64,000 nucleotides of DNA, taken from the NCBI GenBank assembly GCA_030272155.1, contig CP126206.1, forward strand, positions 558,001-622,000. The letters run 5' to 3'. This DNA comes from Tetradesmus obliquus (Eukaryota > Chlorophyta > Chlorophyceae > Sphaeropleales > Scenedesmaceae). This document shows positions 33,051-51,207 of this stretch, in pieces; position 1 is the stretch's first letter, and every line of letters begins with the position of its first letter. The translations under genes were made by a program, and so were the position numbers. Under the pieces are notes generated by a model that was given only the letters and a program-made list of their open reading frames with translations, did not search any database and was not told the DNA's origin.

Positions 33051-33481
33051 TTGTGTGCCATGCACCAGTACATCTCACTGCTGCTGTGTCGCCTGCTGCT
33101 GCTCTTTTTGAACTCCTTCTCATCCACGAACACCTTCTGCTGCTGTGCTGCTGCCACCAGCACCTACGTGCTGCTGCTGCACCAGGCCATCAACACAGCG
33201 CCTCACTGCTGCTTCGCTGCTTCCTGCAGCTCATTGTTTAACTTCCTCCTCATCCACTAACACCAACCACTTGCATCACTTCTGCTGCTGCGCTGCTGCC
33301 ACAAACCCCTCAATGCAGCTGCTGCCACTAGCGCCTCACTGCTGCTGTGCCGCCTCCTGCAGCTCTTTTCTCCTCATCCACAAACCTTGTAGCCATCACC
33401 TCTGCTCCTGTGCTGTTGCCACCAGTACCTCGACGCAGCAGCAGAGCTGCTGCTGCTGCTGCACTAGGCCAACACAGCGCC
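33051..33481 (-). repeat. Degenerate copies of the GLO1 C-terminal coding end, downstream of its stop
   Basis: On the minus strand the stretch encoding FVDEEDF near the GLO1 C-terminus recurs around 33110-33140, 33240-33260 and 33365-33390 (read as VFVDEKEF and TRFVDEEK in broken frames), separated by CTG-rich filler. The copies lie after the stop at 33482, so the junction-copying seen in the introns also extends into the 3' flank. Confidence 0.75.
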
Positions 33482-49400: not shown

Positions 49401-51207
49401 TCTTTGTGCTGACCGCTGCTTCGCCTGCTGCGCTGCTTGCTGTCTGATGTAGCAAACCTGTCACCTAAGCAGTGTTGTTGTGGGCGCCCTTCTATCCCTG
49501 CAGGCGGCACTACTTCAACAACACGGACGGGCTCATCTTTGTGGTGGACTCGCAGGACAAGGACAGGCTGGGCCGCGCGGGCCAGGAGTTCCGCAGCATC
49601 ATCAACGACCCGCTCATGAAGAACAGCGCCATACTGGTCTTCGCCAACAAGCAGGTGGGCTGAGAGCTTGGGTGCTGTGGGGCCAGGCCTGTGTTTGTGC
49701 GCGTGCCCTGCGTGCCCCTGTATGTACGACACGTCATCCATGACCCGCATGACACTAGTGTGAAGAACAGCGCCATCTTGGTCTTCGCCAACAAGCAGGT
49801 GGGCGCTGAGAGTTGCATGCTGTGCGGCTGTGTCTGTGACCGCATGTGCCCTGCGTGCCCTTTAAGTTCGACTCGTTATACAAGACACGTTCATGAAGAA
49901 CAGCGCCATCCTGGTCTTCGCAAACAAGCAGGTGGGCTGAGAGCCTGGGTGCTGTGGTGCGAGGCCTGCGTTTGCGCGTGTGCCCTGCGTGCCCCTGTGT
50001 GTTCGACACATATCTGATGACACTAGTGTAAAGGACAGCGCCATCCTGGTTTTCGCCAACAAGCAGGTGGGTGTGATTGGGCTGCAGAGGAGCTGGCTGC
50101 TGTGGGGACAGGCCTGTGGTTGTGCGTGTGTGCAGCATGATCAGGAAATAGCTCAGGCGTGCAGCGGTGGTTTTGCAGCTGGGCGGGCGGGCGGCGGCGC
50201 GGCGGTCCAGGTGCTAATGGTGCAGCTTTGCATGCGCTTCTGCACTGATGGGTGTGCAACCAACAGGGTGCATGGCAGCATCAGGTGCTGTAGTGACTGG
50301 TGTGCTGTTGCGTTGCGTTGGCCAATAGGTTGCTGTGCAAACTTGCAGGCGTGCAGTGCCAATGGGCTGAGAAGACAGCGCTGTGTCCCTCTGAACTGCG
50401 GTCCCCGCATCATCATATGACGATGCATTCGCCGGCGCACATTCAACCGCCTGCGCCTGCTGTCCGCCATTCCATGGTTGGTATTCGGTCTCGGGCGCTG
50501 TCTATGCTGCGCCTGCGATGCTTGCAGCACATGCGCGGCTGCGCCTTTCCTTGCACCGGCTTCTACGCCTGCCACGCCTACCCTGTTCAACCTTTGCAGG
50601 ACGTGCGCGGCTGCGGCTGCGACGCGTGCATTGATGCCTGCCACTGATCGCTTGCTGTGATGCTGCTGTCTACCCTGTTGACCTGTGATGCTTGCAGGAC
50701 GTGCACGGCTGCACCTGCGCCGCCTGCACCTGTTGCCCACCATCGACTGCTCGCTGTGATGCTGCTGCTGAACACCTGTGTTGCCCTGTGCTGCTGCCAT
50801 GCTTGCAGGACATGCGCGGCTGCGCCTCACCGGCCGAGGTGTGTGAGGCGCTGGGCATGACCGAGCTGCGGGGCGCCTGCAAACACCTGCACACAATGTG
50901 CTCACCACACATCACCTGCTATGGTTGTTATATTGCTGCCCGCCCTGCGCTTGCCACCTTTGCAGGACGCGCGGGGCTGCACCTGCGACGCCTGCACCTG
51001 ATGCTCGCCATCGACTGCTTGATGTGATGCTGTTTGCAGGACATGCGCGGCTGCGCCTCACCGGCTGAGGTGTGTGAGGCGCTCGGCATGACCGAGCTGC
51101 GGGGCAGGCGCTGGCATGTGCAGAGCGCAATAGCGATACGCGGGGAGGGGCTGTATGAGGGGCTCGACTGGCTGGCAAACACGCTGAAGAGCAGACCATC
51201 AGGCTGA
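46489..51207 (+). CDS. ARFB: ARF-family small GTPase, plant ARFB type, 4 exons, 183 aa
   Basis: GTP/GDP switch that recruits coat and effector proteins to Golgi or plasma membranes. Exons 46489-46528, 48402-48594, 49504-49654 and 51040-51207 give 184 codons with the stop, close to the 181-192 of the family. Gly2 (MGQAITKLF) is the myristoylation site, after an amphipathic helix. G1 is GLDAAGKT, G2 TVPTIGFN, G3 [14 protein letters not shown]4 ANKQDM. The ending is [19 protein letters not shown] at the start, LHIGEV and VEKVQYKN fit plant ARFB rather than ARF1. All introns carry copies of exon boundaries. One false exon 4 start (50809) is nearly identical to the true exon for about 65 bases. 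Confidence 0.93.
47545..48401 (+). repeat. Four decoy copies of the ARF exon 2 acceptor
   Basis: The true junction (acaacag then GCAACAAGGAGATGCGCGTGG, first exon base 48402) recurs with its exon base at about 47545, 47733, 47933 and 48202. Spacings are about 187, 200, 269 and 200 bases. Each copy keeps a pyrimidine-rich CCACCACC tract, AG and about 30-45 exon bases encoding [11 protein letters not shown], then diverges before the P-loop lysine, so no decoy encodes a working G1 motif. Confidence 0.93.
49243..49503 (+). repeat. Two decoy copies of the ARF exon 3 acceptor
   Basis: The junction ctgcag followed by GCGGCACTACTTCAACAAC, true at 49504, recurs at 49243 and 49369 (spacings 126 and 135). 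Each copy keeps about 40 exon bases (RHYFNNT) and then diverges. The second is almost identical to the true exon as far as the LIFV codons. Confidence 0.93.
49655..50066 (+). repeat. Three decoy copies of the ARF exon 3 donor
   Basis: The exon end encoding [11 protein letters not shown] with its donor GTGGG, true end 49654, recurs ending at 49798, 49931 and 50066 (spacings 144, 133 and 135). Each includes about 30-45 exon bases and the following intron start (tgagagcttggg-like). Confidence 0.93.
50520..51039 (+). repeat. Four to five decoy copies of the ARF exon 4 acceptor
   Basis: The junction ttgcag followed by GACATGCGCGGCTGCG, true at 51040, recurs at 50600, 50698, 50809 and 50966, with a weaker copy near 50525. 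Spacings are about 98, 111, 157 and 74 bases. The 50809 copy extends about 65 bases into the exon (through MTELRG) before diverging. Confidence 0.92.

Follow-up and report, generated by a model that had tools for sequence, protein, structure and literature searches.

Intronic copies of exon edges in the genome of Tetradesmus obliquus

Many introns of genes across the genome of the green alga Tetradesmus obliquus (104.66 Mb on 17 contigs) contain copies of the edges of their own exons. The stretch analyzed here, referred to as the window, covers 64,000 nucleotides (G000:C16:558001-622000) and includes an ARF gene on the plus strand and a GLO1 gene on the minus strand that both carry such copies. 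A typical copy is a partial exon edge of about 20-90 nt, and often several accompany one exon-intron junction. A first-pass annotation of the window had claimed more than 30 copies, and self-BLAST together with junction-anchored local alignment recovers 32, including three at the end of the GLO1 coding sequence. The explanation we lean towards, with confidence somewhat short of even, is that tandem duplication across exon edges lengthens introns, the exon halves of the copies being kept alike by recombination while the intron halves diverge.

Exon-edge copies in the genome sample and the window

The genome was sampled in 21 systematic 10-kb stretches (one further stretch, reading N, was omitted), and two targeted stretches, L004 and L005, were excluded from the random counts. 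Exons were called by a simple, home-made two-strand hidden Markov model gene finder trained on the same 274 kb of sample, window and targeted stretches. Intron-side copies are present at 45 of 330 sampled junctions (27 of 158 donors and 18 of 172 acceptors; 65 copies), compared with 11 of 330 control queries set within introns at a depth of 150 nt and 3 of 144 set within exons at a depth of 100 nt (Fisher 2e-6 and 4e-5, respectively). Some copies had themselves been called as exons, a double counting that affects this tally and those given below for 112 real-copy pairs, copy-copy differences, 11 of 65 copies, the identity profile, retained GT and AG, inner-edge splice sites, 26 of 64 copies and 104 copies. 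Taking the eight predicted exons that are themselves copies out of the sample leaves 39 of 320 junctions with 59 copies (Fisher 2e-5 against the 11/330 intron control). Both strands bear copies, as do 12 of the 21 stretches, and junctions are enriched over matched control queries, which upholds the earlier view that the pattern is not a single gene's history.

Misassembly is a barely credible source of the copies. Arrays of this kind are hard to assemble, and stretch L033 (G000:C2:3005501-3015000) holds an exact direct duplication of 3,561 bases, 1541-5101 and 5940-9500, around an ARF-like gene. Against this, the array copies in the window differ mutually (self-match identities of 66-98%), copies lie inside genes whose canonical proteins are intact, and they are spread over both strands and 12 sampled stretches. 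The L033 duplication, which continues up to the limit of the sequence analyzed there, is either a very recent event or an assembly duplication, and it makes this stretch uninformative as the paralogue test for which it was intended.

In the window, the ARF exons were anchored by protein P0003 and the GLO1 exons by protein P0216, both of the same genome. The ARF gene has 12 copies, found by self-BLAST and junction-anchored search, distributed as follows (fractions give identical bases):

48402..48594, plus strand: ARF exon 2, real (tblastn with P0003, and sequence)
47541..48237, plus strand: four exon 2 acceptor-edge copies in the intron, 47541-47582 (38/42), 47729-47767 (38/39), 47929-47967 (38/39) and 48197-48237 (39/41)
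49504..49654, plus strand: ARF exon 3, real (tblastn with P0003)
49237..49411, plus strand: two exon 3 acceptor-edge copies, 49237-49285 (45/49) and 49363-49411 (48/49)
49761..50071, plus strand: three exon 3 donor-edge copies, 49761-49804 (42/44), 49884-49937 (50/54) and 50031-50071 (38/41)
51040..51204, plus strand: ARF exon 4, real, followed by the stop (tblastn with P0003)
50522..50874, plus strand: three exon 4 acceptor-edge copies, 50522-50546, 50594-50618 and 50803-50874 (junction-anchored search)

GLO1 has 20 copies, all located by junction-anchored search, of which three lie at the coding-sequence end rather than at a splice junction:

37277..37396, minus strand: GLO1 exon E, real (tblastn with P0216, and gene finder)
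37051..37195, minus strand: two exon E donor-edge copies, 37161-37195 and 37051-37085
37503..37771, minus strand: three exon E acceptor-edge copies, 37503-37542, 37633-37674 and 37731-37771
36283..36321, minus strand: one exon F donor-edge copy
35303..35429, minus strand: GLO1 exon G, real (tblastn with P0216)
34142..35242, minus strand: five exon G donor-edge copies, 35184-35242, 34858-34924, 34484-34550, 34253-34319 and 34142-34197
35532..36173, minus strand: five exon G acceptor-edge copies, 35532-35561, 35632-35688, 35835-35909, 35987-36046 and 36117-36173
33740..33798, minus strand: one exon H acceptor-edge copy
33485..33682, minus strand: GLO1 last exon H, real (tblastn with P0216)
33074..33368, minus strand: three coding-sequence-end copies in the 3' flank, downstream of the stop, 33333-33368, 33200-33267 and 33074-33134

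The same search of the window gave no copy at the ARF exon 2 donor or at the GLO1 exon F acceptor. Coding-sequence-end copies also occur in the genome sample, at 2 of 34 predicted stop edges, one of them doubtful. In stretch L014 (7281-7553), a copy of this type includes the stop codon and lies about 215 bp downstream.

Local direct repeats in the 21 stretches form 156 pairs: 62 intron-junction, 33 exon-exon, 32 intron-intron, 9 junction-junction and 20 other. Mean repeat coverage is 0.074 in exons, 0.118 in introns and 0.021 elsewhere. Along the junction it peaks in the last 60 exon nt (0.12-0.18), falls at intron positions +20 to +60 (0.07-0.11) and climbs again at +80 to +120 (0.12-0.15). 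For 50 junctions that lie outside the window and include those of L004 and L005, the distance to the nearest copy is 90-200 bp in 39 cases and 100-150 bp in 28, which suggests a single range of unit sizes. Copy-bearing introns are longer than others, with a median of 395 versus 273 nt (27 versus 105 introns, p = 0.011), an association that may run in either direction.

Repeats were also counted against shuffled positions, a check proposed with the first-pass annotation. Random placement within genes, with double-exonic placements rejected (300 draws), gives 31.8 +- 3.9 junctions (maximum 42), compared with 44 observed, and 35.8 junction pairs (maximum 50), compared with 62 of 142. When the repeats may fall at any position of the stretch (500 draws), the result is 24.4 pairs and 24.3 junctions (maxima 37 and 40), compared with 65 and 46. 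The count therefore exceeds its null, but within genes straddling is only modestly enriched, and junction straddling as such is mostly geometry.

These figures bear on a simpler account, in which plain tandem repeats fall regardless of junctions, straddling is frequent because introns are short, intron-only copies decay from view and exon-touching ones stay recognizable, with no special process involved. Genic placement alone already yields 72% of the observed junction matches (31.8/44), exon-internal duplications would presumably be purged, and there are copies of coding-sequence ends. Yet the 62 junction pairs lie beyond the maximum of the genic draws, and the stretch-wide placement is exceeded as well. 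The overhang into the intron is also far shorter than random placement gives: 38 of 64 observed overlaps include at most 14 intron nt, whereas a single random draw has 8 of 55 such overlaps. Simple decay, in addition, keeps exon and intron parts comparable, an exon identity of at least 0.85 together with an intron identity below 0.5 arising in 1 of 44 surviving simulated pairs, whereas 38 of 64 sampled copies are without intron similarity at p < 0.05. Plain repeats are an unlikely account of the pattern.

Exon-intron asymmetry and the proposed origin

Across 112 pairs of real exon and copy from all sets, the 30 junction-proximal exon bases are 0.897 identical, while the next 40 intron bases show 0.548 identity in gapped alignment, compared with 0.386 for shuffles. 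The identity profile, taken over the 84 copies whose intron parts fall below the percentile threshold described next, stays near 0.9 in the exon, takes values of 0.63-0.88 at donor positions +1 to +6, declines from +7 to +10 and reaches background by about +10; on the acceptor side it falls from -5 to -13. This profile matches the shape of constraint at an ordinary splice junction. The copies had been described as keeping splice consensus while their coding part decays. The first half of that description agrees with the data, as the splice dinucleotides are kept, and the second is reversed, with an exon part about 0.90 identical and an intron part that is lost.

Intron similarity above the 99th percentile of unrelated introns was found in 11 of 65 sampled copies and in 10 of 35 window copies, the latter from a sample-style search that includes six copies assigned to an incorrect donor site of an exon made of CAG repeats. 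That threshold is very high for acceptors (60, versus 26 for donors), which makes 11/65 a low estimate and a test at p < 0.05 the fairer one. By this test, 26 of 64 sampled copies retain residual intron similarity, where about 3 are expected, and 38 do not. We conclude that many copies arose by tandem duplication of exon and intron together and that their intron half disappeared afterwards. Among the 84 copies below the percentile threshold, GT is retained in 30 of 41 donor-type copies, a set that contains the six wrong-donor CAG-repeat copies, and AG in 39 of 42.

A second ARF site allows the divergence of copies and introns to be compared directly. ARF exon 3, with acceptor and donor arrays, is also present on contig C3 (G000:C3:512554-513146, in L004), and no other ARF exons were found around it in the 20 kb examined. 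Between C16 and C3, 4 of 151 aligned bases differ in the exon itself with no gap openings, 18 of 192 with 3 gap openings in the copies, and 99 of 465 with 29 gap openings in the intron parts (p = 2e-4 for copies versus introns). Copies that are intronic at both sites have therefore changed less than the surrounding introns, a point in favor of exchange.

The short overhangs raise the possibility of a process aimed at junctions that copies only the exon edge and a few intron bases, for instance by way of an intermediate connected with RNA or with splicing, or by local template switching. Similarity does often stop 4-9 bases into the intron, and some pairs look young, such as the L012 pair 2770/2885, which is 46/47 identical with unlike spacers. 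However, residual intron similarity persists in 26 of the 64 copies, and the L012 pair itself shows it (p = 0.042). Distances are alike for copies with and without intron similarity, the profile mirrors ordinary junction constraint, and a spliced-mRNA template would not carry the GT and AG that are in fact kept. The residual similarity likewise weakens the idea that sharp-edged copies are displaced short copies born without intron sequence. The first-pass annotation had favored a process acting on junctions; with 31.8 of the 44 junctions reached by random genic placement, coding-sequence-end copies present and intron similarity retained in so many cases, junction-aimed copying appears quite unlikely.

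Under the reading of tandem duplication followed by recombination, small tandem duplications with units of about 95-150 bp would arise throughout T. obliquus genes. Those spanning an exon edge would be tolerated because the original outer junction stays usable, and the intron would gain length. The exon half of each unit would then stay, or be kept, similar to the functional exon, and the intron half would diverge, often beyond alignment. The exon half would most likely be kept by recombination of the copies with the functional exon, in the form of gene conversion or unequal exchange. Because selection fixes the exon and its splice consensus, these would offer a lasting recombination partner, whereas introns would drift out of range. 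Birth by tandem duplication is supported, both by the residual intron similarity and by the full-unit tandem arrays seen in self-BLAST.

The maintenance step was explored by simulation. With decay alone, pairs with exon identity of at least 0.85 and intron identity below 0.5 make up 1 of the 44 pairs that survive. Homology-limited conversion, with a constrained exon as its anchor, produces this class in 2 of 70 surviving pairs, and in 12 of 54 when small indels are included; with larger indels, no pairs survive. Another anchored run (3 of 65 surviving pairs in the class) was set aside, its rule having let small indels block repair. Since decay fails and anchored conversion yields the class in a minority only, we infer that recombination maintains the exon half, and anchored gene conversion is weakly supported by these models.

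The low yield of the conversion models is one of several results that weigh against this reading. No direct conversion event was observed in the DNA of the one strain available. Of 23 copies found through their intron part, 10 have an exon part that does not match, and in the remaining 13 the contrast is small, with substitutions at 8.5% of exon and 10.1% of intron positions. A further difficulty comes from PurF and the chaperonin genes, whose copies look coding.

Possible coding constraint in PurF and chaperonin copies

Judged by their substitutions, most copies appear to be non-coding, the neutral expectation for a free copy compared with a constrained exon being about 44-50% synonymous. Differences between exon and copy amount to 13 synonymous and 13 non-synonymous in ARF, and to 47 synonymous, 58 non-synonymous and 2 stops in GLO1. 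Over all 104 copies there are 234 synonymous and 204 non-synonymous changes and 7 stops, against a neutral expectation of 190:241:11.5; with double counting removed, 90 copies give 197, 170 and 5. Copy-copy differences in all sets comprise 115 synonymous and 209 non-synonymous changes, and 17 of the 104 copies contain an in-frame stop or gap. The synonymous excess over neutral is largely due to a PurF gene in one systematically drawn stretch, L024, and without that stretch the sample stands at 100 synonymous, 94 non-synonymous and 2 stops in 47 copies.

The PurF gene (minus strand of L024, G000:C7:1700001-1710000) has 10 copies, in which 39 synonymous and 7 non-synonymous differences are accompanied by 1 stop and 3 gaps. 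This tally uses exons anchored by protein P0121, and gene-finder exons gave 45:7:1. One stretch of 26 residues is present in two copies that encode the same protein sequence (100% identity) and differ in DNA by synonymous changes only. Chaperonin genes, located by a whole-genome Pfam search and then followed in five short stretches, have arrays in four, L034 (C16), L035 (C12), L037 (C15) and L038 (C14), and no repeat in the fifth, L036. Their 18 copies show 83 synonymous and 26 non-synonymous differences with no stop or gap, and 42 synonymous and 18 non-synonymous differences among themselves. These loci were chosen for overlapping profile hits, which biases them toward protein-like copies, and most of the 18 copies are believed not to be among those hits. 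On sequence grounds, the PurF and chaperonin copies look far too synonymous for non-coding copies. A simple relation between synonymous bias and gene conservation was discarded, as it is contradicted by ARF, a very conserved protein with an even tally.

One way to account for such copies is that they are alternative coding exons maintained by selection. In the annotated ARF product P0002, of the same locus tag, 10 residues are duplicated; they are encoded at 50809-50838, where a junction copy serves as an additional in-frame exon of 30 nt. The PurF and chaperonin tallies point the same way, and in-frame exons are predicted at some PurF copies by the gene finder. The canonical PurF P0121, however, is without these duplications, stops and gaps interrupt 17 of the 104 copies, and the window genes and the sample minus PurF are near neutral. 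The complementary splice site that a complete exon would need at the inner edge is not enriched: an acceptor is present at 44% of 64 donor-type copies versus 38% of controls, and a donor at 10% of 49 acceptor-type copies versus 32%. Selection for alternative exons is therefore a decidedly improbable explanation in general, and the lack of partner-site enrichment led us to reject complete mini-exons as a general account. Use of the copies as in-frame alternative splice sites was also rejected, since nearest-copy offsets, judged by eye, show no preference for multiples of three.

Taken together, the PurF and chaperonin tallies and the P0002 insertion suggest that the copies of some genes are, or recently were, under coding constraint or exchanged with functional exons. 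A doubtful but possible extension of the duplication reading is that each exon edge belongs, together with its copies in the intron, to a small family whose members recombine, so that exon halves would be exchanged among copies, the functional exon and possibly diverged alleles. PurF and chaperonin intronic copies would then carry coding-like divergence, and introns genome-wide would be growing reservoirs of partial exons.

Neighboring genes and comparison with known systems

The first-pass annotation had described arrays in four neighboring genes of the window. Those of ARF and GLO1 are borne out, and in the other two genes the signal is weak. At the threshold used for ARF and GLO1, no copy was found at the two junctions examined in the 'helix-hairpin-helix' gene or at the one acceptor examined in the 'secreted-protein' gene. 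The former shows a diverged repeat in self-BLAST:

42372..42568, minus strand: two-unit repeat at a predicted donor of the 'helix-hairpin-helix' gene (75% identity, offset 84; exon part about 10-15 nt by eye)

A similar repeat in the 'secreted-protein' gene, with an exon part of about 7 nt, was seen by eye only and is absent from the self-BLAST matches. Proteins assembled from the predicted exons of these two genes gave no Pfam domains, leaving both names unconfirmed. Elsewhere in the window, positions 3678-12622 of the minus strand hold two adjacent related genes (5664-7702 versus 10436-12495, 79% identity), and a three-unit tandem array with a unit of about 123 bp lies outside predicted exons at 60994-61363. 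A near-perfect satellite array, its period about 23 bp, occupies 9060-9781 of stretch L020.

The mean intron of T. obliquus is given as 462 bp, the longest of five algae, with 230-302 bp in the other four (PMC5966456), and the cause of long introns in Chlamydomonas and its relatives is termed unknown in PMC8226300. Frequent exon-edge duplication, if confirmed, would be a concrete mechanism of intron growth. The contrast between the exon and intron parts of the copies provides a natural way of testing for recombination between exons and their own intronic copies, and poses the puzzle of why only the exon part stays recognizable and why PurF and chaperonin copies look coding. The copies also matter for annotation because they retain splice signals, as the eight sample exons miscalled by the gene finder illustrate. 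Exon-edge arrays of this kind were not found among the literature titles and abstracts listed, in a search that largely leaves aside subscription journals and preprints. Three features seem new: how often exon edges are copied, the occurrence of whole arrays at one junction, and the asymmetry between exon and intron parts.

Introner elements are intronic repeats found across a genome, and the copies resemble them in being intronic and genome-wide. They differ in that each junction bears copies of its own exon rather than of a common element, although the spacers may belong to a shared family. Intragenic exon duplications that reach into introns are reported for many genes of surveyed genomes, as the 'inter-boundary' and 'intronic' matches of Exonize (PMC12343006). 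The T. obliquus copies likewise repeat exon sequence within the same gene across exon and intron. Unlike tandem duplications of a whole exon with both splice sites, they mostly comprise 20-90 nt of longer exons, and of the 156 repeat pairs 9 are junction-junction, a number that includes short exons which had been called twice. They are further set apart by several copies per junction, by similarity that ends near the splice consensus and by their presence at 39-45 of 320-330 junctions.

Tandem genomic duplication of an AGGT-bearing exon segment is presented in PMC3443670 as an accepted route of intron gain, and the first-pass annotation had tentatively linked the repeats to it. Both involve local tandem duplication with exon sequence and splice-site-like motifs. 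In T. obliquus, however, the inner splice sites that this route needs are not enriched, and the link is not supported: each duplicated unit runs across a junction already present and adds to the intron there, so that the process appears to be one of intron growth and not of intron gain.

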